A DNA stretch of 64,000 bases. It comes from Luteolibacter yonseiensis (GTDB lineage: Bacteria > Verrucomicrobiota > Verrucomicrobiia > Verrucomicrobiales > Akkermansiaceae). Shown here piece after piece: positions 13,970 through 58,124 of this stretch. Below the pieces are notes generated by a model. It was not told the origin of the DNA. It saw only the letters and a list, made by a program, of their open reading frames with translations, and searched no databases. How positions within the stretch are numbered: position 1 is the first letter of the stretch; every line of letters starts with the position of its first letter. The stretch is from positions 682,001 through 746,000 of the forward strand of contig NZ_JAENIK010000004.1 in assembly GCF_016595465.1 (NCBI RefSeq). Direction: 5' to 3'. The position numbers and the translations under genes are program-made.

Positions 13970-14971
13970 TCAGGCGCCTTCCGTCTTTGAAATGTTCGTC
14001 CGCATCTGGGTGTCGGCTTTGACGTTCTCCATCTTGTAATAATCCATCACGCCGAGTTTTCCACTGCGGAAGGCTTCGGAAATCGCCAGCGGCACCTGTG
14101 CCTCCGCCTCCACGACCTTCGCCTTCATTTCCGCGACACGGGCGACCATTTCCTGCTCCAGGGCGACAGCCGCGGCACGGCGGATTTCGGCCTGGGCCTG
14201 CGCCATGTTCTTGTTCGCCTCGGCCTGGGCCTCCTGGAGTTGCGCGCCGACGTTCTCACCCACGTCCACGTCCGCGATGTCGATGGACAGAATTTCGAAA
14301 GCGGTCCCCACATCAAGCCCCCGGTGGAGCACGACCTTGGAGATGGAATCCGGCGACTCCAGCACCGACTTGTAGCTGGCCGCGGAGCCGATGGTCGTGA
14401 CGATGCCTTCACCGACACGCGCGATGATGGTTTCCTCCTTCGCACCGCCGACGAAGCGGTCGAGGTTCGTCCGCACGGTGACGCGGGCGCGAACTTTCAC
14501 CTGGATGCCGTCCTTCGCCACGCCGTCGATGGTGGTGCGTCCGGAGGCGGGATTCGGACAGTCGATGACTTTCGGATCGACCGATGTGCGGACCGCCTCG
14601 ACCACGCTTTTTCCGGATCCCTTGGTTGCGAGGTCGATGGCGCACGCGCGGTCCCAATCCAGCTCGATACCCGCCTTACGGGCGGCGATGAGCGCCTGGA
14701 TGGTGGGGATGACGTTTCCGCCGGCGAGGAAATGTGCCTCGATATCGTTGATAGGGATCTCAATGCCGGCCTTGCGCGCGGTGATGCGCGAGTCCACGAC
14801 CATGCCGTAGGGCACCTGGCGCAGGCGCATCGCGACGAGATCGGTGAACCCGACATAGGCTCCCGCAAGCCACGCCCGCAACCAGACGTTGAAGAACGAG
14901 ATGACGATGCCGAAGATCAGCAGGCCAAGGATGACGATGACAATGAGGACGATGGTGGATACTTCAAGCAT
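13970..14971 (-). CDS. floA: FloA-type flotillin-like membrane scaffold
   Basis: Bacterial flotillin that forms membrane microdomains. One N-terminal hydrophobic hairpin (residues about 5-27) is followed by the long conserved family core ('[20 protein letters not shown]', '[20 protein letters not shown]', '[17 protein letters not shown]') and an Ala/Glu-rich coiled coil (about 235-295). The 333-residue length matches FloA of Bacillus. Its start overlaps the short NfeD gene by 8 nt, the usual partner arrangement. Confidence 0.93.
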
Positions 14972-15458
14972 GGGAGTGATGGTCGGTTGGATGGGTCATG
15001 GTGACAATGAGGCGGAAATTATCCGCTCCGGTGACTTGTAGAATGGAACCCGCGGGTGCCTGGCCTGACTGGCAGAAAGCTTCGTAACGGGAGCCATCCA
15101 CGAGGATGTAGCCGCTGGGTGACAGCATGGTGAGCGCTTCCGCGGATTTTCCCACGAGTTCCCGGGCTTCCTCTCCCAAGGCGGCTGAAACACCGGTGAT
15201 TTCACTGGTGAGGAACGCGCGCCTGCCCAGTTTCGTCCGGGGCAGGATGCGGAATTCGATGAACAGCGCCAGCCCGCCGATCGTGAAAGCCGTCAGGACG
15301 GCGAGCAGCCCGCCGCTGTTTCCATAAGTGACAAAAGAGACCACGCACCCGGCGAACATGAGCAGACCTCCGATGCTGCCGAGAATCGCTCCGGGAATGA
15401 TGACCTCCACCACAAGGAACAGGATGCCAAGGGTGAACAACAGGATGATGAGGCTCAT
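14964..15458 (-). CDS. Short NfeD-like membrane protein
   Basis: Partner of flotillin. About four hydrophobic segments (residues about 3-85) precede a small OB-fold NfeD domain ('[20 protein letters not shown]', '[18 protein letters not shown]'). The 164-residue length fits the protease-less NfeD class. It overlaps the long NfeD gene by 4 nt (ATGA) and floA by 8 nt, so the three are translationally coupled. Confidence 0.85.
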
Positions 15459-16876
15459 GAAACCACCTCCACTTTCAGGCTGAACTGTTCGACCCGGGTC
15501 ACCCTCACAGGCACCCCTGCATCCACATGTCCGATCGCAACCCGCGCCTCGTAGCGTCGGCCATTGATTTCCACCTGTCCGCTGGGAAACAATCCTGTGA
15601 CGGCCACGCCTGTTTCGCCGAGGAGCGCGGAAGGCGAGGATCCGCCACCGGTAAGGGGGCGCACCCCGCCCGGTTCACCAGCTACCGCGGCATCGAGGAC
15701 CATGTTTCCCCACAATCCTCCACGGGGAAGGAACTTCAAAATCGCGAGGAAAATCACCACCGCCAGGGCGACGCCGGTCACGACATTGACCAGAGGGCGG
15801 ACAAGGGCGCCGCTGGAAAGCGGAATCGGCTCACCCGGCCATAGATCTGTCATGGACCACACAAGCGAACCGAGCATCAATGCGGCACCCACCACGGCGG
15901 GTATCATCATCCCTGGGAAAAAGAACACCTCGACCGCAAGCAACAGCGCTCCCAACAAGAAGAAGATCACCGGTTCATGTCCGGACAAACCCGCCGCGAA
16001 CTGTCCGAAAAAGATGACGGCCAACAGCGAAAGACCCGCCACTCCGAAGAAGCCGAACCCCGGCGTCTTGAACTCGATGAACAGGCAGACCATGCCGAGA
16101 CCAAGCAACAGCGGTGTGATGCTGGTGAGGTACTGGGCGAGCTTTTCCGACCATGTGACTTCCAGCTGGCGGACTGTATAGTTCCCGGCTCCGTGGAGCC
16201 GGTCCAGCAGATCGGTGAGATTTTCCTCAATGCCCACGCCCAAGAGCGGCTGCGCGGGATCTCCATAAGACTTCGTCGCCTCCTGGGCGGTGAGCGAGAG
16301 GAGCTCGCCTTTCGCCTTGATCAGGTGCTCGCCGATCTTGAACTCGGAGTCCACATCGATCATCGAGGAAATGACATCAGCCCGGTAGCCCTTGCCCTCC
16401 GAGATGGAACGCACGCGGGCTTTCAGATAGCTGACAATCTTGTGGCGCATCGTCTCATCGATTTCCCCGCCGGAAGAAAGCACGGGAGCCGCCGCACCGA
16501 TCACCCCGCCGGGCGCGAAATAGATTTCGTCGGTACCTGCGGAAATCAACGCACCTGCGGAGATGGCTTCGCGGTTGATGTAAGTGACGGTTTTTCCGGG
16601 AAATTTTTCCAATGCCTTGAGCATTTCAAACGTGACGTCCAGTTCTCCCCCAGGCGTTTCCATGTCGAGCACGATGGTGTCCACGTTTTGCTCGATGGCC
16701 TCCTTCAGTCCCCGGCGCAGGATGAACAGTTCCGGCTTCGCGATCTGCTCGCGGATCGGAATGACCACGACTTTTTTCGTTGGTGCCGGTTGGGCCTCCC
16801 CATCGGCGGCACGGAGCGAGATGGCCGACAGAAGTACTGTCGCCATCGCCAAAATGCTGAAAAGTCTCCGGCTCAC
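15455..16876 (-). CDS. Long NfeD (NfeD1b) membrane serine protease
   Basis: ClpP-fold protease fused to a membrane domain and a C-terminal OB domain. From the GTG at 16876 it begins with a signal peptide ('RRLFSILAMATVLLSAIS'). The ClpP-like domain (about residues 35-210) has the Ser in 'REAISAGALIS' and the Lys in 'MRHKIVSY' as a likely Ser-Lys dyad. A block of hydrophobic segments (about 260-400) and the NfeD OB fold ('GETGVAVTGLFPSGQVEING') follow. The frame stays open to 16969, but the added residues do not look like a signal. It is the first gene of the cluster through floA to rseP. Confidence 0.88.
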   Translation of the reverse strand: MSRRLFSILAMATVLLSAISLRAADGEAQPAPTKKVVVIPIREQIAKPELFILRRGLKEAIEQNVDTIVLDMETPGGELDVTFEMLKALEKFPGKTVTYINREAISAGALISAGTDEIYFAPGGVIGAAAPVLSSGGEIDETMRHKIVSYLKARVRSISEGKGYRADVISSMIDVDSEFKIGEHLIKAKGELLSLTAQEATKSYGDPAQPLLGVGIEENLTDLLDRLHGAGNYTVRQLEVTWSEKLAQYLTSITPLLLGLGMVCLFIEFKTPGFGFFGVAGLSLLAVIFFGQFAAGLSGHEPVIFFLLGALLLAVEVFFFPGMMIPAVVGAALMLGSLVWSMTDLWPGEPIPLSSGALVRPLVNVVTGVALAVVIFLAILKFLPRGGLWGNMVLDAAVAGEPGGVRPLTGGGSSPSALLGETGVAVTGLFPSGQVEINGRRYEARVAIGHVDAGVPVRVTRVEQFSLKVEVVS

Positions 16877-17012
16877 GAAAACAACATGTCCGGAATGAAC
16901 CGTGTCTACAAGCTCACGCTTGGTGGAAGATCCCGGTAATTTTCCAATCGATAGGTCCGATGGGGACATCGGAAGAGACCTGCTGCGGCCCAGTGGCGGC
17001 TTTGAGCGGGAG

Positions 17013-24038: not shown

Positions 24039-24176
24039 GACCCGCAGAGAATTGTGGATTTTTACGGACACGGCTAGACCAAAATCCCGGGTCACAAAAG
24101 GTTTTTTCATGTCTGACATTCTGATTTTTCAAGAGGCTGGAGCAGAGACTCGGTGGGAGGAAGTAGCAATGATCAA

Positions 24177-24192
24177 TGTTCCACGTGGAACA
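24177..24192. promoter_or_regulatory. parS: parS-like ParB-binding site 1
   Basis: TGTTCCACGTGGAACA, a perfect 16-bp palindrome matching the bacterial parS consensus (TGTTNCACGTGNAACA). It lies in the short divergent region before mnmG, 62 bp upstream of the ATG. Confidence 0.85.
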
Positions 24193-24254
24193 TTCGATGA
24201 TTTTTTCGGGGCTTGAGTGTGGCGACCCCGGCGTTACCTTGTGGGTCTCCAAAG

Positions 24255-26129
24255 ATGTTTCGATTCCCCAAGTGCTACGATGTGATTGTGATTGGTGCCG
24301 GTCATGCTGGTGTGGAAGCCGCAATGGCGGCCGCACGCATGGGTGCGGAGGTGGCCGTGCTCACCCAGAACCTCGACACAATCGGCCAGATGTCGTGCAA
24401 CCCGGCCATCGGTGGTCTTGCCAAAGGCCATATGGTCCGTGAAATCGATGCTTTGGGAGGTGTGATGGGATTGAATACGGACGCCACGGGGATTCAATGG
24501 CGCATGCTTAACGCCTCGAAGGGTCCGTCCGTGCGTGCCCCACGCGCGCAGTGCGATAAGAAGGCATACCAGTTTCGCATGAAACGCGAACTCGAGGCCA
24601 TGCCCGGAGTCGAAATCCACCAGGGAAACGTGGCTGAACTTCTGGTGCAGGACGACCACATCACGGGAGTTGTTACTTCACTGGGGATGGAGATTTCCGG
24701 GAAGTCCGTGATTCTCAGCGCCGGGACTTTCATGGGAGGCCTCATGCATGTCGGTCTCCGTAACGAGAAGGGAGGACGGATGGGGGATGCTACCTCTCAC
24801 GTGTCCGAATCGCTTAAACGGCTGGGTTTCGAAGTGGAACGCTTTAAAACCGGAACGCCCTGCCGCTTGAATGCCCGATCCATTGATTTTTCCAAATGTG
24901 AGCGCCAGGATGGTGACACCCCCGTTCCTAGGTTCAGTTTCATGGCAGACACGCTTCAAAAGGGCGAAAATGACCTGTTCACTCTCAATCCTTGGGGGGA
25001 TCCAATGTTCCACGTGGAACAAATGCCGTGCTGGATCACTTACACCAACCCCCGCACCCATGAGATCATCGCGGGAAATCTTCACCAGTCGCCCATGTAT
25101 TGTGGGGTGATTGAGGGAGTGGGGCCACGGTATTGTCCCTCCATTGAAGACAAGGTGGTGCGGTTCGCGGAAAAAGAACGTCATCAGGTTTTCCTTGAGC
25201 CTGAAGGACGTCATACCCTCGAATACTACGTCAATGGCGTATCAACTTCTCTGCCTTACGAGGTGCAGCTCGATTTTCTGCGATCTATCGTGGGGCTGGA
25301 AAAGTGTGAGATCCTCCGCCCTGGCTATGCGGTTGAGTATGATTATTGTCCACCCACCCAGCTCCGCCATACACTGGAGACGAAAAAGATCGAGGGTCTT
25401 TACTTTGCCGGCCAGATCAACGGAACCTCCGGCTACGAAGAAGCGGCCGGGCAGGGGCTTATCGCAGGAACAAACGCGGCGCTTAAAGCCCTTGGAAAAC
25501 CGGAGTTTGTCCTAGGCCGCGACGAGGCCTACCTCGGCGTGATGGTGGACGACCTGGTCACGCGAGGCTGCACCGAACCCTATCGCATGTTCACCAGCCG
25601 GGCAGAATACCGCCTGCTCCTGCGCCAGGACAATGCGGATCTCCGGCTCACTCCGAAAGCTACAGAAATAGGCCTCACCAGCGGTGAACGTGTCCGGCGG
25701 GTGGAGGAAAAACGGGTTGGTCTGGAAAGGGCGGATTCTTATGTCCGCCAGGTAGTGCACGAAGGGGTGAAACTGGATCAATGGTTGCGGCGAAGTGAGA
25801 ATGAGTGGCACACGCTCCCTGAAAACCTGCTTTCAGAGTTCCACGTGGAACTTTGGCCGCTCATTGAGACGAATTTCAAATATGAAGGTCATCTCGTCCG
25901 CCAGCAGGCTCAGATCGATCGCATGACTCGGCAGGAAAGCAGGCGCATCCCTGCGACGCTGGATTACACGACCATCCATGGCTTGAAAAAAGAGGCGCAG
26001 ATTCGATTCAGTGAGATCCTCCCGGCGACCTTGGGTCAGGCGGGCCGCATCCCGGGCATCACTCCGGCGGATCTGGCAATTCTGGTGATATGGTTGGAAA
26101 AACTCGAAAGAGAACCTGCCGTCCGGTAA
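24255..26129 (+). CDS. mnmG: tRNA uridine-5-carboxymethylaminomethyl modification enzyme MnmG (GidA)
   Basis: FAD-dependent enzyme that, with MnmE, installs the cmnm5 group on wobble U34 of tRNAs. The N-terminal FAD motif is '[20 protein letters not shown]'; '[22 protein letters not shown]', 'GTFMGG', 'FKTGTPCRL' and '[13 protein letters not shown]' are signature segments. The ATG at 24255 gives 624 residues, the usual length; an upstream TTG at 24213 is less likely. Two parS palindromes lie inside the gene and are read as FHVE both times. The rsmG/parAB genes that often follow gidA are not here; a DUF885 gene follows after 52 bp. Confidence 0.96.
25006..25021. promoter_or_regulatory. parS: parS-like ParB-binding site 2 (inside mnmG)
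   Basis: TGTTCCACGTGGAACA, identical to site 1, 829 bp from it. It is read in frame as M-FHVE-Q, just before the conserved '[12 protein letters not shown]'. Confidence 0.85.
25837..25852. promoter_or_regulatory. parS: parS-like ParB-binding site 3 (inside mnmG)
   Basis: AGTTCCACGTGGAACT, a perfect palindrome sharing the 14-bp core of sites 1 and 2, 831 bp after site 2. It is read in frame as E-FHVE-L. Only the outermost base pair departs from the consensus. Confidence 0.78.
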
Positions 26130-49907: not shown

Positions 49908-52900
49908 ATGTTTGGTGAAAAATCAATGCTGAGATCCTGGTTCCTGCAGTTCATCGTCACGGTGGTTCTGATCACCTCGATGAATGTCTCCGCGCTGCCG
50001 CCCTCATGGTGGAGTGCGGCGGATTCCGCTGGCAAAAAGGTCATCGACACGTCGGTGACCGATCCGAACAATTACGGACCGGTCAACATCGGCCAGGCGA
50101 AGTTCGTCGCGAAGCGCGCGATCGAGGCGTTGCGGATCCATGCGCCCGTGGTGGCGGACCAGATCGAGTCCGACCTCGTGGGCAGCGGGAAGATCATCCC
50201 CAGTTGGACTGTCCCCGCCGCCGGAACGGAGGAGGCGAAAGACCAGTATTCACCATTGCAGGTCGGCCAGCTCAAGGCGATCGCGGATCCCTTCTACCGC
50301 AGGCTCAACGCCCATGACCCCGCCTGGCTGAACGCCCAGCTGCTGGCGAACATGACCAAGGATCCAGCCGACAGCGCCAACTATTTTCCCTGGACCTCCA
50401 GCACGTCGGACGACGACAACCGCGCCATCGCGACGATCGGACAGTTGAAGGCCGTGTTTTCCCTTCATTTCGATACCGTGACCGATCAGGTGCAGGTCCT
50501 CAACAGCGGCAACATGCGCCGGCTGCAGGTGGCTGGGAACCTGCTGGTGAAGGTGACCGCGCCCGACGGCACCCCGCAGTCCGGGGTCCACCTCCAGTTC
50601 ACCCGGCTGAGCGGTGACGGCGGTTTCCCCGGTGGGATCACCGACACGGACCGCACCACCAACACCTCCGGCGAGGTTTCCGCCGGCGACTATCTTTCGC
50701 CCGAGGGCGACGTCATCCGGGTCTCCCTCCATACCAGCCAGGGAACCCAGACCGTCTGGCTTCCGGCGAACGTGGCCGGTCCCACCTATACCTACGTGGA
50801 AGGCGAGGGAGGGTGGAACTACTCCCCTCCGACATACAGCCATGCCACAGGCAGGGAGCCCGTGGTTCAGAAACCTCCGATAGATCCTCCCGGCGGAGCC
50901 GGGCCTGTGGAATCGATTCTCAAATATATCGATTACGATGCGACGGTGGAAACCAGATGGACATATACGCCAACGGAAGGTGAGCCTTCCTCAGGAGAAG
51001 CTAGCGCTGTGGTCGAATGGAGGCATGGCGGAATCCATAGGGTCATCAAGACTCCGGAGTATGATGAAAATGGCAATGTGGTTTCCACATCGACTGAAAA
51101 TCGTCCGGATATTTTCAAGGAATCACTGAATACGGTCGTGATGGAATTCGGTGCGGCTGCATACCACATCGACGATGACGATGGGGTGTATGATAGCGCT
51201 GGGAGTGTCAGCATGATACTGACCGGAAAGCAGCCGGAAGGTTACACCCTGAAAACAAACCTTGCATATCACTGGAAAGATTACGCCGGGGTGTATGGTT
51301 TTGATCATGGAGTCAATCCTTCGCAAGTGATCGATTTGACGGACGCGGGGACGACCATTGGCATAAATATCGCCAAATCCGGAAGGTCAACTGGATGGAT
51401 CGGTGCAACCATCGGACCGTTCATCAGCAGCGGACCTGGCACCCCTGACCCCGGTGACAGTGGTCTCAGCTGGGATGAACTTGAAAACAATCTGGTCAAG
51501 ATCGATCCTGTGACTCCCAAGAAGCTTAATGCTGAAGTACTCTACAGTATGAGTGTCGATTCCGTCTTTGAGAGTCCACCGCGCTGGGAAATCAGCTCAA
51601 GCAACCCTAATGTATGGGTTTGTCTGATCGGCCCGGATTCGACCAAGAACGATATACAAAGGTGGGATAAAATGCCCAGCTCAAATTCAGATGAATGCGA
51701 CTTTTCATTACGTCCTGGAGTTAAAATCATGAATGCCAATGGCAACGATGGGGAGAGCACGATCACGTTGAAATTTCTCACTTGGGACGGCACAACCATC
51801 GTCGAAAAGAAATTCGACGTGGCGGTCATCGGCAGCTCGGAAGACGAAGACCCTTCCTTCGAATACGGCGAACAGTCCCTGTCAAGCACCATGGCCATCG
51901 AGGAGAGCTCGGGGCCGAAGTACCGCAAAATCGCCCTCAACGGCCGTCCGATATCCGACGAGAAGCCTCAGAACGAAAACGAGAGCGACGAGGAGGATGA
52001 GGAGACCTATGTGGACGCGCTCAGCCGCGAGCTCCACCACTCCACCACGGATGTGTATGTCCCTGTCCCCGGCAGCGACCTGGCCCTGACGGTAAGGAGA
52101 AACGTGACATCGGAGATCTGGAATCCCACCTCGGACCTGCTTCCGAGGGAGGATCCGACGCTGGGCTTCGGTCCGGCGTGGCGTTCGAATTTATCCGCCA
52201 ACATCAGGATCGTCGAGCAGGTCGCGCTTCCGCCCGAGGACCTCGAGGTGAAGCCCGATCCCGGCACGCTGGGTCCTCTCGTCGCACAGGTACCGGTATC
52301 GGAGCGCAAGATGCGTGGGCTTTCCCAACCCGATCCGAACTACGCGTTCGTGACGGATGAAAACGGGGCCACCCACCGCTTCGTGATCGGTTACAACTGG
52401 GGCGCCACCGGCACATCGTTCAGATACTATGTTCCGGCTCCCACCTCGGCGAATGAGAAGGATTCCCATGAGATGTCCTTGGAGGAGGAGGAAGGGAAGC
52501 TGGTTTTCAAAAAACGTCATGGCAACACCCTGGTTTTCCAGGACTGCATCCGCTTTTACACCGAACGCGTGCGGACCTTCGTCAACGGCCTGGGTTCGGG
52601 TGGTTCTCTTGCGCTGGACACCCCGGAAGAAGGAGGGGGCACTCCGAGCAAGAATGGCACCCGGGGTGCCAGGGGCAGTGGCCAGTTGCAGGACTATCGC
52701 TACCTGCGGCTGCTCTCCGTCACGGATCGGACAGGAACCTGCCTGAACTACAATTACGAAGGAGGAAAGGATATCATCCCCACGAGTATCTCCGCGAGCA
52801 TCTCCGCGGCGGACCGTCCCGATCTCGCCATCCACATCAAGGCGGAGAATGGAAAGGTGAAGTCGGTTTTTGATCCTAACGGAAACGAGACCACGTACGA

Positions 52901-55900
52901 CTATCTCACCTCATGTGGCGCGCTCTCGGAGGTGAAGGCCGGCGGGAACAGGATCGCCAAATATGGATACAAACGCTGGTATGAGCCTGACCCGAAAAAG
53001 AACGTCACCAATGCGGAAGGCGCATCGCTGCTGAGCTGGGCGACAGGCTCCGCGGGACCGTTTCAATATGAGGAAGGGACCCAGCATCTGGACGTGTTTT
53101 CCATCACGGACGCCATGGACAATACCGTGGAGTTCACCTACACGCCGGACCGGAGCCACCTGGTGGAGGCGACGAGCCGCTTCGCAGGGATAGCGGCGGG
53201 CGTTCTGTCAGACCAGGGGAAATCCACGTCGATCTATCCCGCCGCCGGCTATCCTCCGGATGTTTCCAGGATCGACCTTCCCAATGGTGGCGTCGTCCGG
53301 ATCGGCAATTCTTCCTCAATCGCCGCAGCACCCGGTGGCACGGTCCTGCCGGATTCCTCGAAACACACGACGGTGCTGGATGCCGGGAACCATCGGCGCA
53401 CCTACTATTGGTCGGAGTGCGTTTCCGCGCAAATCAATCAACTCCAACTTGGTTACGAGCAGCGGATGCCGGTCGGGGGGATTGATCGGCTCATCAACAA
53501 GACTCCGCAAAGCACGGGCACAACCCATAATGTCAACGCCACCGGAACGGCGTCGCTCCACACCTTTTACACGAAGATGGCGATCCTGCATGATGAGGGA
53601 GGCTCCGAGACATTCACATTCGACCATCTTGCGGGATGCGCCGTGAAGTCGGTCAAGGACTTCAGCGGGAACGAGACCCGTTTCGGCTACGGCGAGAGCT
53701 TTGTCCCTGGCGCGCCACCGCTTGCTTTCTCCCCCAAGGACGGAGGCCTCGGCACGCTCTACAGTTCGAAGCCCACCTCGCAGACCGACGCGCTCCTGCG
53801 CAGGAAGAAGTTTGTCTATGGGCAGAAAGGAATGCTCGAGCAGACGCACGACCACAACAACCACATCACGGATTACGGAGTGGATGACATGGGCCGGACG
53901 ACCCGTGAACTGACCACCCACGGCGGAAACACCCTTTCCGAAACGGAGATCGCCTACCACACAAACACATCTGAAACGGTCTCCACCGCCACGGGGTTCC
54001 CCGGATTCGTCATCCGCCGCACGGTGAAAAACACCGGCGTGTTCGCCTCTTCCTCGGACCCCTCCTGGGTCCAGCCGCTGACACAGCTTTACGAGCCGGA
54101 CGCGCAAGGCCGCGTCAGCCGCCAGGCGACGGACATGAACGGCAGCAACACCATCGATGCCGGCGACCTCGTCACCTCGTTCACCTACGACCGGAACGGC
54201 AACAAGCTCTCCGAGACCAATCCCTCCGGCTCCACCACCTGGTTCCGCTACGACGTGCGGAACCGCCTCACCGGCGTGACCCATCCGGACGGCACGGAGA
54301 AGAAGATCATCTACGACATCAGGGGAAAAAAGGTCCTCGAATACGACGAACGTGGCATCGCCTCGGGCTACGTTTACGACGCGCGCGGGCGGTTGACCAA
54401 GACCATCCGCGACATGAACGGCAACCTGGCGCAGACTCCCACCGGACTCACCGGCATCAATCCCGGCGTGGATATCATCACGGAGATGGTCTACAATCAG
54501 GTTGACTCGCTGGAGCAGGTCAAGGACCCGCGCGGGTATGTTTCGGTCACCGAGTACGACCACCTGCAGCGGCCGAAGAAAAAAATCACTCCCGGGCCGA
54601 CGTGGCCGGTCGGCGTGGCCCCGGACGACAGCGCCGCCAACCAGGTCACCCGTCTGTTCTACGACGGACCCAATGCTGGCGCGACGAGCTTCGATGTCTC
54701 CGGCTTCAAGCCGACGAAGATCGTGGACCCGCGCGGCTACGCCAGCCTCTTCGTTTACGACGAGCTCTACCGCCTCAAGGAAAGCCGCGTCCAATACTCG
54801 CTGTCTCCCGAGCGCTATGCTGTCACGGAAAACACCTACGACTCCGTCAGCGGCGGCATCGACCACGTTTATGAGAAACGCCGGCCCGTCACGGCGGACG
54901 GCACGTCCGTCGCCGGCACATGGGGCGACCAACGCCACACCCACACCCTTTACGACGACCTCTACCGTCCCACCACTGTCACTGTTTACGATACAGGCGG
55001 AGACTCGCAAACCGCCACCGCCCGCACCGCCACCGGTCTGGTGAGGCAGACCACCCGCAGGTTGACCGCCACGGACACCGCCGTCACCGACCTGGAGTAC
55101 GACCGCGCGGGACGGCTGGTGAAAACCATCGCCCCCTCAGTCCCGCTCGACGGGACCGCCACCCTCGTGCGTCCCGAGACCACCACGGTCTACAGCCCGT
55201 CCGGCGCGGTGATCGAAACGGTGGACGCCCGCAACATAAGCACTTGGTTCGTCCACGATGCTCGGGACCGCCTGATCCAGACCATCGCCCCCGCCGTTTA
55301 CGATGCGGACAGCCAGCAGGACAACCGGCCCTCCATCAGCACCACCGCCTACGACAAGTCGGGCAATCCGGTGAAAACCACCAACCCGCGCGGCCACTCC
55401 ACCGTCACCACCTACGACGCCGCGGACCGCGCCATCCAGGTGGCCTTACCGGCCTGCTGGGACGCCGCCACCTCCCAGGAGATCACCCCCGTCACCATCA
55501 CCGGCTACGACCTGGCGGGCAACCCCATCAAGGTCAGCGACGCCAACGGATCGGCCACCGTCAACACCTACGATCCGCTCAACCGCGTCACCACCACCAA
55601 GACCAACCCCGTCGTCCCCGCCACTACCAGCACCCACGCCAACGACCAGACCGTCACCTTCGCCTGGGACAAGGTGGGGAACAAGACCACCGTGACCGAC
55701 GGCCTCGGCCAGGTCACCTCGTTCGAATACGACGGAAAAAACCGCCTCATCGCCACCGTCTGGGACTCCAACGACACCACACGCCGCAAGGTCGATTCTT
55801 CCGAATACGACGCGCTGGTCAAAACCGCCAGCGTCGATCCCCGGGCAAACAGGACCGAGTACAGCTACAACGCCCGCCTGCTGCCCACCGGCAGCACCTG

Positions 55901-58124
55901 CGCCCAGATCCCCGACGACAACGAGACCCGCACCTACGACCACGCCGGACGCCTGCTCACGGTGAACCGCACCAGTCCGGCCGACCCGCGCAACGTCACC
56001 TACATCCACGACGCGCTGGACCGCGTGACCCGCGAAACCTCCGCCGGTTCCAATCACGACTACGGTTACGACCGCGCCGGAAACCGCACCCTCGTGCAAT
56101 ATTCCACCGGCCGGAAACTCGTCACCGCCTACGACAACCAGAACCGCGTCACCACCATCGACGAGCAGATCACCGGTGTTTCGGGCGTGCGCCAGACCGG
56201 CTACGAATACGACCTCGCCGGCAACGTCCTCGCCAAAACCCAGGCGAACGGCACGAAGGAATCCAACACCTACGACCCCCTCGGCCGCCGGACCTCCCAG
56301 AGCACGATGAAGGGGGCCACGCCGATCTCCAACTTCCTCTACACCTACGACCGTGTAGGCAACCTCCTCACCATCGGCGAGACCTACAGCTCGACCACCA
56401 TCCCGAACCGAAACCTCACCAACACCTACGACCGTCAGAACCGCCTGCTTACCGAAAAGGCGGACACCCTCAATACCGCGCAGGCCGTCACCAAGTCCGT
56501 CCTCACCACCTACACCTACAACAAGGGGGACAGCCGGCTTACCAAGAACGTCAGGGAAACCCAGGGAGCCACCCAGATCTCCGACGTCACCGAGACCTCC
56601 GTCTACGGAGACGCGGCCAACGGCAAGAACAGCAACCAGCTCCACAGCCACACCAAGAACGGCCAGACCACCACCTACACCTACGACGCCGCCGGAAACC
56701 GCGAGGGCAGATGGGTCGGCGGCTCGCTCAAGGAAAGCTACGGCTGGGACAGCCGGAACCGCCTGACCTCCCTCACCCAGGCCAGCCCCGCCAAGACCTA
56801 CGGCTACGGTTACGACTACCGCGCCCGCCGGGTCATCCGCGACGAATCGGCGGCCGGAGGCGCGAACACCACCATCTCCTTCAGCGGCGGCACCTCGGTC
56901 CTCGAAAAAACCGGCGCCACCCTCGATGTCGAATACATCCGTGGCAGCGACTACGGCGGCATCCTCTACACCATCCGCAGCGGGACGAACTCGTTCAACG
57001 CCTACAACAGCCGGGGCGACGTCGTCGCGAAAACCACCAGCGCGGGCACCGTCTCGTGGCAGGCGACCTACGAAAGCTTCGGCACCCGCACCACCGAAAC
57101 CCCGACCGCCAACCCCGACCGCCAGAAAGCCAACACCAAGGAAGAGGACCCCACCGGCCTGCTCAACGAAGGCTTCCGCTACCGCGATCTGACGACGGGC
57201 TCGTTCATCTCGCGCGACCCCCTCGGCTTCGTGGACGGCCCGAACGTCTACACGTATGTGAGGCAGAATCCTTGGACGATGTTTGATCCAGAGGGATTGG
57301 AGTCCGCGAACGAAAAGAAATGGAAAGACATGGCCCATGATGAGAACCAGCCCATTCTTCCCCGGCTGGGAGCCATCGCTATGGCGGTGGGGGAAAGTCT
57401 CAATCCTTTCCGGTCGGACAGCAGTCTTCGTGAAGCCGGTCGTGGCTTGCAACAAGGTTTTGCCGAGAGCCGAGAGACATTGAAAAGAGACGCACCGCAT
57501 GGGGTTCGGGAGGTTGCCCAGTTTGCGTTGGGTGTGGGCTCGGCTGGAACGGCAATGATCTCCGGCCCTGCAAGTACCGGAGATGTTAAGGACTCGATCC
57601 AACAGCAAGGATTCGTGAAAACCGCCAAGCAGATGACAACAGGTTTGGTGGATCATGCCGTCAACAATCCCGTCGAGTTCGCGGGCGAAATTCTCGCTGG
57701 CGGAGCCATGGGTAAGGCGTTGGCGGGCAAAGGTCCGGTTGCGTCTTCCGCGAGGAATATCGTAGCAGAAGGAGTCGTAGATGCCGCAAATACAGTAGCG
57801 GAGGCTGGAACTGGTTACCGTTCATTCTCCGCTTTCAAACGTGCTGAAGGGGTCGCGGGCGAAGGGCAGGCTTGGCACCACATCGTAGAGCAAACGCCCG
57901 GCAATGTGGAACGATTCGGAGCGGAAGCCATTCACAACACCGAAAATCTCGTAAGGCTACCGCACGGCCCGGGGACCATTCATAATCAAATCAGCGGATT
58001 CTATTCATCCAAGCAGCCTTTTACTGGTGGCCAAACGGTGCGCCAATGGCTTGCCCCTCAATCATTCGAGTCTCAGGCTGAGTTCGGACGAAACATCATG
58101 CAGCAATTTGGAGGAAATCCATGA
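49908..58124 (+). CDS. Full-length RHS repeat protein with C-terminal HNH-like toxin
   Basis: Giant secreted polymorphic toxin (2738 residues). A signal peptide (about residues 7-29) is followed by three 'GQxK' modules ('NIGQAKFVAKRAIEAL', 'QVGQLKAIADPFYRRL', 'TIGQLKAVFSLHF', residues about 50-190), a low-GC variable region (about 325-625), then dozens of RHS/YD repeats (about 730-2400). The core ends in 'RDLTTGSFISRDPLGFVDG' and 'MFDPEGL' (about residue 2460). The last 276 residues are a distinct toxin region: a hydrophobic stretch, then 'GQAWHHIVEQTPGNVERFG' and 'IHNTENLVRLPHGPGTIHNQ', which resembles HNH/EndoVII-type nuclease toxins (WHH/LHH class). The immunity gene overlaps by ATGA. Confidence 0.93.
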   Translation: MFGEKSMLRSWFLQFIVTVVLITSMNVSALPPSWWSAADSAGKKVIDTSVTDPNNYGPVNIGQAKFVAKRAIEALRIHAPVVADQIESDLVGSGKIIPSWTVPAAGTEEAKDQYSPLQVGQLKAIADPFYRRLNAHDPAWLNAQLLANMTKDPADSANYFPWTSSTSDDDNRAIATIGQLKAVFSLHFDTVTDQVQVLNSGNMRRLQVAGNLLVKVTAPDGTPQSGVHLQFTRLSGDGGFPGGITDTDRTTNTSGEVSAGDYLSPEGDVIRVSLHTSQGTQTVWLPANVAGPTYTYVEGEGGWNYSPPTYSHATGREPVVQKPPIDPPGGAGPVESILKYIDYDATVETRWTYTPTEGEPSSGEASAVVEWRHGGIHRVIKTPEYDENGNVVSTSTENRPDIFKESLNTVVMEFGAAAYHIDDDDGVYDSAGSVSMILTGKQPEGYTLKTNLAYHWKDYAGVYGFDHGVNPSQVIDLTDAGTTIGINIAKSGRSTGWIGATIGPFISSGPGTPDPGDSGLSWDELENNLVKIDPVTPKKLNAEVLYSMSVDSVFESPPRWEISSSNPNVWVCLIGPDSTKNDIQRWDKMPSSNSDECDFSLRPGVKIMNANGNDGESTITLKFLTWDGTTIVEKKFDVAVIGSSEDEDPSFEYGEQSLSSTMAIEESSGPKYRKIALNGRPISDEKPQNENESDEEDEETYVDALSRELHHSTTDVYVPVPGSDLALTVRRNVTSEIWNPTSDLLPREDPTLGFGPAWRSNLSANIRIVEQVALPPEDLEVKPDPGTLGPLVAQVPVSERKMRGLSQPDPNYAFVTDENGATHRFVIGYNWGATGTSFRYYVPAPTSANEKDSHEMSLEEEEGKLVFKKRHGNTLVFQDCIRFYTERVRTFVNGLGSGGSLALDTPEEGGGTPSKNGTRGARGSGQLQDYRYLRLLSVTDRTGTCLNYNYEGGKDIIPTSISASISAADRPDLAIHIKAENGKVKSVFDPNGNETTYDYLTSCGALSEVKAGGNRIAKYGYKRWYEPDPKKNVTNAEGASLLSWATGSAGPFQYEEGTQHLDVFSITDAMDNTVEFTYTPDRSHLVEATSRFAGIAAGVLSDQGKSTSIYPAAGYPPDVSRIDLPNGGVVRIGNSSSIAAAPGGTVLPDSSKHTTVLDAGNHRRTYYWSECVSAQINQLQLGYEQRMPVGGIDRLINKTPQSTGTTHNVNATGTASLHTFYTKMAILHDEGGSETFTFDHLAGCAVKSVKDFSGNETRFGYGESFVPGAPPLAFSPKDGGLGTLYSSKPTSQTDALLRRKKFVYGQKGMLEQTHDHNNHITDYGVDDMGRTTRELTTHGGNTLSETEIAYHTNTSETVSTATGFPGFVIRRTVKNTGVFASSSDPSWVQPLTQLYEPDAQGRVSRQATDMNGSNTIDAGDLVTSFTYDRNGNKLSETNPSGSTTWFRYDVRNRLTGVTHPDGTEKKIIYDIRGKKVLEYDERGIASGYVYDARGRLTKTIRDMNGNLAQTPTGLTGINPGVDIITEMVYNQVDSLEQVKDPRGYVSVTEYDHLQRPKKKITPGPTWPVGVAPDDSAANQVTRLFYDGPNAGATSFDVSGFKPTKIVDPRGYASLFVYDELYRLKESRVQYSLSPERYAVTENTYDSVSGGIDHVYEKRRPVTADGTSVAGTWGDQRHTHTLYDDLYRPTTVTVYDTGGDSQTATARTATGLVRQTTRRLTATDTAVTDLEYDRAGRLVKTIAPSVPLDGTATLVRPETTTVYSPSGAVIETVDARNISTWFVHDARDRLIQTIAPAVYDADSQQDNRPSISTTAYDKSGNPVKTTNPRGHSTVTTYDAADRAIQVALPACWDAATSQEITPVTITGYDLAGNPIKVSDANGSATVNTYDPLNRVTTTKTNPVVPATTSTHANDQTVTFAWDKVGNKTTVTDGLGQVTSFEYDGKNRLIATVWDSNDTTRRKVDSSEYDALVKTASVDPRANRTEYSYNARLLPTGSTCAQIPDDNETRTYDHAGRLLTVNRTSPADPRNVTYIHDALDRVTRETSAGSNHDYGYDRAGNRTLVQYSTGRKLVTAYDNQNRVTTIDEQITGVSGVRQTGYEYDLAGNVLAKTQANGTKESNTYDPLGRRTSQSTMKGATPISNFLYTYDRVGNLLTIGETYSSTTIPNRNLTNTYDRQNRLLTEKADTLNTAQAVTKSVLTTYTYNKGDSRLTKNVRETQGATQISDVTETSVYGDAANGKNSNQLHSHTKNGQTTTYTYDAAGNREGRWVGGSLKESYGWDSRNRLTSLTQASPAKTYGYGYDYRARRVIRDESAAGGANTTISFSGGTSVLEKTGATLDVEYIRGSDYGGILYTIRSGTNSFNAYNSRGDVVAKTTSAGTVSWQATYESFGTRTTETPTANPDRQKANTKEEDPTGLLNEGFRYRDLTTGSFISRDPLGFVDGPNVYTYVRQNPWTMFDPEGLESANEKKWKDMAHDENQPILPRLGAIAMAVGESLNPFRSDSSLREAGRGLQQGFAESRETLKRDAPHGVREVAQFALGVGSAGTAMISGPASTGDVKDSIQQQGFVKTAKQMTTGLVDHAVNNPVEFAGEILAGGAMGKALAGKGPVASSARNIVAEGVVDAANTVAEAGTGYRSFSAFKRAEGVAGEGQAWHHIVEQTPGNVERFGAEAIHNTENLVRLPHGPGTIHNQISGFYSSKQPFTGGQTVRQWLAPQSFESQAEFGRNIMQQFGGNP
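56667..57279 (+). repeat. RHS-core segment duplicated downstream (copy 1)
   Basis: This part of the big RHS gene is nearly identical to 59013-59637; the copies differ by scattered bases and a 12-bp insertion in copy 2. It spans the last YD repeats to the end of the conserved core, so the similarity stops exactly where the toxin domains begin. Confidence 0.9.

Follow-up and report, generated by a model that had tools for sequence, protein, structure and literature searches.

Putative parS centromere sites in and before mnmG in Verrucomicrobiota and their apparent imprint on the MnmG protein

Three palindromes in and just before mnmG (Table 1) are very probably parS centromere sites for the single chromosomal ParB of the genome, and the two FHVE tetrapeptides encoded by the copies inside the gene would be set by the DNA site and not by a need of the enzyme. 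The DNA analyzed is a stretch of 64 kb (hereafter the window) on contig C4 of a genome of 5.73 Mb in 13 contigs (G000). That parS can lie inside a gene is already known; what appears to be new is its residence in one gene across a phylum, together with the imprint on the protein. Our literature search found no paper on parS inside mnmG, on phylum-wide residence in a single gene or on such an imprint.

Table 1. Positions in the window of mnmG, the three parS-like sites and the place of a fourth site used in other lineages
Feature	Position	Strand	Remarks
parS-like site 1, TGTTCCACGTGGAACA	24177..24192	.	70 bp upstream of mnmG start codon
mnmG (gidA), tRNA uridine-5-carboxymethylaminomethyl modification enzyme, 624 aa	24255..26129	+	Pfam GIDA E 2.4e-164, SAM_GIDA_C E 3.2e-20
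Site A place	24828..24839	+	codons 192-195, FEVE in window; FHVE and parS-like site in other lineages
parS-like site 2 (site B), TGTTCCACGTGGAACA	25006..25021	.	codons 252-255, TTC CAC GTG GAA = FHVE
parS-like site 3 (site C), AGTTCCACGTGGAACT	25837..25852	.	codons 529-532, TTC CAC GTG GAA = FHVE

The 14-mer GTTCCACGTGGAAC occurs at 24178-24191, 25007-25020 and 25838-25851, and the first-pass annotation was right that it lies within two copies of one 16-mer and one copy of a variant, with centres 829 and 831 bp apart, and that both coding copies are read in the frame giving FHVE. The annotation also stated that the core is absent elsewhere in the window; indeed, no fourth match was found in the 64 kb with up to 2 mismatches, and none of 100 dinucleotide shuffles of the window contained three or more matches. 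The site A place in the window (FEVE) is without a palindrome. Genome-wide, G000 contains only three exact copies of the 14-mer in its 5.73 Mb, all within 1.7 kb and either in mnmG or 70 bp before it, when about 0.02 would be expected from base composition, so that the motif is not spread over the genome in many copies, an outcome that the annotation had considered. Imperfect copies number one with 1 mismatch (on contig C11, L098) and 22 with two mismatches. Because a backward control pattern gave 19 places under the same setting, these imperfect sites are near chance, and we rejected them as additional parS. The 16-mer of sites 1 and 2 is identical to Pseudomonas aeruginosa parS2 and parS3 as listed in Table 1 of PMC4368675, and the third site keeps the 14-bp core of the known parS type. 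Site 1 also opens, in another frame, an open reading frame of 88 aa (24176-24442) that begins with MFHVEH and overlaps the mnmG start; it is probably not a gene.

The start of mnmG was set at the ATG at 24255, which is aligned with the start in relatives, and the stop codon is at 26127-26129. Solved MnmG/GidA structures match the window protein. An AlphaFold2 model (mean pLDDT 82.9) shows coil at sites B and C, the latter between helices, and at site A coil that continues into a strand. Upstream of mnmG are a divergent DUF6580 gene and then genes for a 2-oxoacid (pyruvate-type) dehydrogenase; downstream, Pfam identifies a DUF885 gene and a SNF2 helicase gene. As the annotation had noted, parA, parB and gidB (rsmG) appear to be absent from the neighbourhood: a Pfam scan of 31 window ORFs found no such domain. 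Further afield, the window contains a FloA flotillin-like gene adjoining an NfeD gene (13970-16966) and, at some distance downstream from an ABC transporter gene, a gene for an RHS-repeat protein of 2738 aa (49908-58124). A published PVC signature insert in GidA was looked for in PMC3444138 and dropped, as its text contains none of the terms sought.

The genome is not without ParB, which the annotation had named as an outcome against it. It encodes one ParB, 313 aa long when counted from the listed start. The protein has ParB_N, HTH_ParB and ParB_C domains, and its relatives of known structure are ParB, Spo0J and Noc proteins. At the ten positions defined for Caulobacter ParB as contacting parS or setting specificity (PMC7383237), this protein has, in Caulobacter numbering, Q162, G170, K171, S172, R173, N178, A179, G184, G201 and K204. 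Thus R173 and G201 are of parS type, there is no lysine at 179 or 184, and K replaces R at 204; judged by these residues, the contact surface is of the parS type rather than the Noc type. We infer that this ParB is cognate to the window palindromes.

A parAB pair near the sites, which is usual and not defining for parS, is absent in G000. The parB gene stands alone among FtsX-type, RDD and SecA genes on another contig, C12, and the best of six AAA_31 matches, our ParA candidates (E 1.2e-55 at C12:949267), is about 102 kb away from it and not a neighbour. The palindromes could be true parS whose main role is ParB-dependent SMC loading and folding of the origin, with little ParA-driven segregation. 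A solitary parB so far from the best ParA candidate favours this, and in S. pneumoniae parB is an orphan and the parS sites lie near the origin (PMC7022226). However, the genome does encode a strong ParA-type ATPase, and a Hi-C study reports ParABS homologues in 12 of 12 gut strains, Akkermansia included (PMC10197239). We consider such a restricted role rather unlikely, though far from remote. The reading of the sites as parS is common to both cases.

We then compared mnmG loci within the order. Among the best 80 of 570 mnmG loci, found with six peptide patterns, a palindrome match at position 759/762 of the gene was present in all 80 with up to 2 mismatches, in 78 with up to 1 and in 72 exactly, and 73 had an upstream site within 300 bp (up to 2 mismatches); since one of the six patterns contained FHVE, the peptide may be over-represented among these 80. 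The whole-genome sets for the order and the phylum were chosen without the FHVE pattern. For the alignment, mnmG was present in 161 of 169 loci, the remaining 8 having been included for their sites outside the gene; together with the window, the 161 made 162 rows, or 158 after removal of 4 identical genes. Site B reads FHVE in 123 of the 158 rows and carries the exact 14-mer in 119; ten further rows (9 FHME and 1 FRVE) keep the palindrome there with 1-2 mismatches. The corresponding numbers are 50 and 47 at site C and 13 and 12 at site A. Only L048 has FHVE (at site A) with no near palindrome, and in 7 other FHVE cases the palindrome has 1-2 mismatches. In the order, FHVE is therefore found almost only together with the palindrome, the association that the annotation had proposed to look for. 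Part of this joint gain and loss is built in, because the peptide is encoded by letters of the palindrome itself. A FastTree tree was built from 154 of the 162 rows, without 8 that were partial or duplicates and without the site columns; on it, the fewest state changes were 5 for site A, 4 for site B and 17 for site C. Among 113 genomes of the order, 106 contain exact GTTYCACGTGRAAC in 1-7 copies each, and 112 encode HTH_ParB.

The annotation had also drawn attention to the even spacing of the three sites. The distances stand as measured, but they have no meaning and we rejected spacing as a signal: an upstream site within 300 bp (up to 1 mismatch; 123 of 158 rows) is found anywhere from −6 to −244, with a few further away, the sites at 579 or 1590 are present in some relatives and missing in others, and a total of two or four sites is common. 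Because of this variation, even spacing in the window is incidental. Several f4 genomes (L166-L170) have an extra MnmG insert near residue 238, before site B, which is then shifted to 801-870, or to 1059 in L169, whose start was set too early. L165 (G021) has seven exact sites and one 1-mismatch site in mnmG and up to 1.9 kb after it. Two in-gene copies, at 1556 in L165 and at 757 in L279, lie in another frame and do not read FHVE.

Lineages in which the site was lost or relocated serve as natural controls. Site B has no match with up to 2 mismatches in 25 of the 158 rows. Another site is present in or just after mnmG in 16 of these; the other 9 have none in the mnmG stretch examined, and 8 of these 9 genomes have exact sites elsewhere. 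In Akkermansia-like genomes (g2, so called by us from their size and kinship), FRMEQ, FRMKQ or other residues stand at site B, and site C is the sole exact copy. Two f2 genomes (L129, L131) read FRIRQ at site B and have site A and two downstream sites. Eight small g2 genomes (G001, G028, G035, G044, G052, G064, G102 and G105) carry their exact sites outside mnmG, upstream of argS or intergenic where inspected. The small g2 genomes also have 1-mismatch sites, which encode FHVEQ within an LPG_synthase_C gene and, at the beginning of another gene, FHMEQ. In a small-genome Akkermansiaceae lineage (L176-L183), parS-like sites lie not in mnmG but near argS, within an LPG_synthase_C gene and where another gene begins, and in several stretches they are about 1.9 kb apart. 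G058 has no exact site, and G061 has only a site C with 1 mismatch.

Over the phylum, exact GTTYCACGTGRAAC was found in 88 of 144 genomes and HTH_ParB in 94, counting strong matches only (13 weak partial matches were scored as none). Both are present in 86 genomes and both absent in 48; the ten discordant genomes comprise 2 with parS only (G177, G195) and 8 with ParB only. Fisher's test gives p 3e-27 with genomes counted singly, 24 of the 48 genomes with neither coming from one family, f17; scored by family majority, 30 families have both, 10 neither, 0 parS only and 2 ParB only (p 4.5e-8). The palindrome thus co-occurs with ParB across the phylum, in support of the parS-like identity first proposed from the window. 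Among the ParB-only genomes (G222, G165, G123, G115, G156, G217, G224 and G141), G141 carries two sites with 1 mismatch in the same loop of MnmG, and G222 (L263) has no site with up to 2 mismatches in its 7.3 kb mnmG stretch.

Among the places listed, the exact site is inside mnmG in 34 of 35 genomes with a placed MnmG (G116 and G233, with no usable MnmG match, were left out), in 23 of them in the matched span and in 11 in what should be the unmatched N-terminal third. By site, 41 of the 69 listed are in the span, 17 in this presumed part, 6 further upstream and 5 elsewhere. We examined 20 mnmG regions from other orders and classes, in 15 of which the loop preceding the PCWITYTN motif contains an exact site; L280 has only 1-mismatch sites in the loop, and L263, L265, L266 and L281 have none. 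L265 and L266 belong to 0.9 Mb genomes (G142, G162) without ParB, in which the palindrome has decayed and the loop reads FHVKQ or FHVRQ. In all, at least 60 of the 94 ParB-bearing genomes carry an exact copy within mnmG; it lies elsewhere in 5, is missing from 8 and is unplaced in the remainder. Two or three parS copies in the MnmG stretch, often 33-70 bp apart, are common in genomes of other classes.

Codon usage and the flanking base are independent tests of selection on the DNA. The codon test used the 123 FHVE rows and the 318 columns in which at least 90% of rows have one degenerate residue. Residues 252-255 are encoded by one codon in 98-100% of the rows, against a median of 52% over the 318 columns, and occupy ranks 1 to 4 in codon conservation. 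Q256 is sixth (CAA 0.92), while CAG is preferred in the seven other columns of glutamine among the top 25 listed. Ten different amino acids occur immediately before FHVE, and 122 of the 123 rows have G as the last base of that codon; leaving out the Met rows, the count is 90 of 91, when 33% would be expected.

These results bear on the idea that FHVE is a functional motif of MnmG and that the palindrome merely follows from selection on the protein. FHVE is indeed common in the order, as the site B count shows, but its synonymous codons are fixed beyond those of any other position, and the preceding base is fixed across ten different residues. Moreover, many other residues replace FHVE where parS is absent, one copy lies upstream of the coding sequence, the 17-residue stretch at site B is missing from E. 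coli MnmG in the alignment, and the motif is found in unrelated genes where the genome's mnmG is without it. We regard a motif of the enzyme as very improbable. Codon fixation, site turnover and the bond with ParB together favour selection on the DNA. A conserved protein motif usually signifies protein function; here, FHVE is most readily understood as the trace that a DNA site has left.

We give as little credence to the possibility that the palindromes are transcription factor operators for mnmG or its neighbours and not a centromere. The site 70 bp before the start codon would suit an operator, but the others lie 0.6-1.6 kb inside the gene, some lineages have them in other genes, the match to known parS is exact, and the palindrome tracks ParB across the phylum. 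That the palindrome acts as an mRNA hairpin, as a perfect inverted repeat able to pair in RNA might, is scarcely credible for a sequence that also occurs before the gene and at unrelated or intergenic locations and that tracks a DNA-binding protein.

The region of mnmG (gidA), rsmG and parAB adjoins oriC in other bacteria. In E. coli, oriC is flanked by mioC and gidA (PMC4446571). To locate the origin among the relatives, we used GC skew. In G013 (Akkermansia-like, 2.65 Mb, one contig), 20 sampled intervals place it at 0.94-1.07 Mb; R2 is 0.875 with a break at mnmG and 0.36 with a break at parB, and the 0.62 obtained at dnaA requires the other break to be set near mnmG. At a 1-kb scale, the skew changes sign at about 973 kb, beside three DnaA-box-like sequences and 1.9 kb from the mnmG parS at 971,192, and dnaN is at 975.3 kb. 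The dnaA (0.4 kb) and parB (160 kb) genes of G013 are 0.97 and 0.81 Mb from the mnmG site. In G094 (same genus as the window, 4.92 Mb, 40 sampled intervals), the best fit is at 0.38-0.49 Mb, with mnmG at 0.413, and fits within 10% span 0.02-1.47 Mb. With the terminus exactly opposite, R2 is 0.435 for mnmG versus 0.123 for dnaA-dnaN; with a free terminus the gap is modest (0.435 versus 0.387). G219, from another family of the class, shows no clear skew switch and is uninformative. In G000, neither a skew switch nor a DnaA-box cluster was found at mnmG within the 64 kb.

The other usual landmarks are scattered. In G000, dnaA and dnaN are together at C11:466038-467500, on another contig than mnmG, and in G094 they are about 0.65 Mb from it. 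The distance from dnaN to mnmG is 3-4 kb in five Akkermansia-like genomes and in G129, and 0.5-3 Mb in G094, G091, G043, G049 and G005; dnaN was rejected as a general marker of the origin, being far from mnmG in these five genomes and on another contig in G000. Taking single-contig genomes as circles, parB is 0.79-2.4 Mb from mnmG in 11 genomes of the order; in G148 and G174 it is 88-89 kb away.

Our preferred reading, parS sites bound by the single ParB, suggests the following course. ParB is predicted to load at the mnmG sites next to the replication origin, where, by analogy with other ParABS systems, it would bind and spread from the sites by CTP-dependent clamp loading; ParA and/or SMC would then move or organise the sister origins, as in other bacteria. 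An early site may have lain in the MnmG loop before PCWITYTN, where insertions seem to be tolerated. It would have been kept there through much of the history of the phylum; sites in other loops or genes would have been added to it or taken its place, and dnaA, parA and parB would have moved away. With moderate confidence, we extend this to most ParB-bearing members of the phylum: their centromere would be coded in mnmG, the PCWITYTN loop being a parS cassette with residues set by ParB, and this tie would hold origin and centromere by mnmG while dnaA, parA and parB scattered. The mnmG site may offer an easy origin marker for the many Verrucomicrobiota genomes available only as fragments, in which dnaA and parB are not bound to mark it. 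It also raises two testable questions, namely what holds a centromere in one gene over the history of a phylum, and whether ParB loading inside mnmG affects tRNA modification.

The closest known counterpart is P. aeruginosa, where the same 16-mer occurs, parS1-4 form a small cluster near the origin and 9 of 10 sites are predicted in coding sequence (PMC4368675); the location of two window sites within a gene, which the annotation had stressed, is thus in itself not unusual. In contrast to P. aeruginosa, most located copies here are in or next to one gene across the phylum, the same MnmG residues bear the imprint, and parB is far off in most single-contig genomes examined. For Akkermansia muciniphila YL44, the Hi-C study reports ParABS homologues, with parS clusters at the origin defined by skew and contact map, an origin that is not always at dnaA; its account of this strain, in the sections available, names neither mnmG nor a coding imprint (PMC10197239). 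Compared with the mnmG-rsmG-parAB-oriC arrangement, the likeness is that mnmG lies beside the origin by GC skew in one single-contig relative (G013); the difference is that dnaA and parB of that genome are elsewhere and that the window ORFs scanned hold no rsmG domain.
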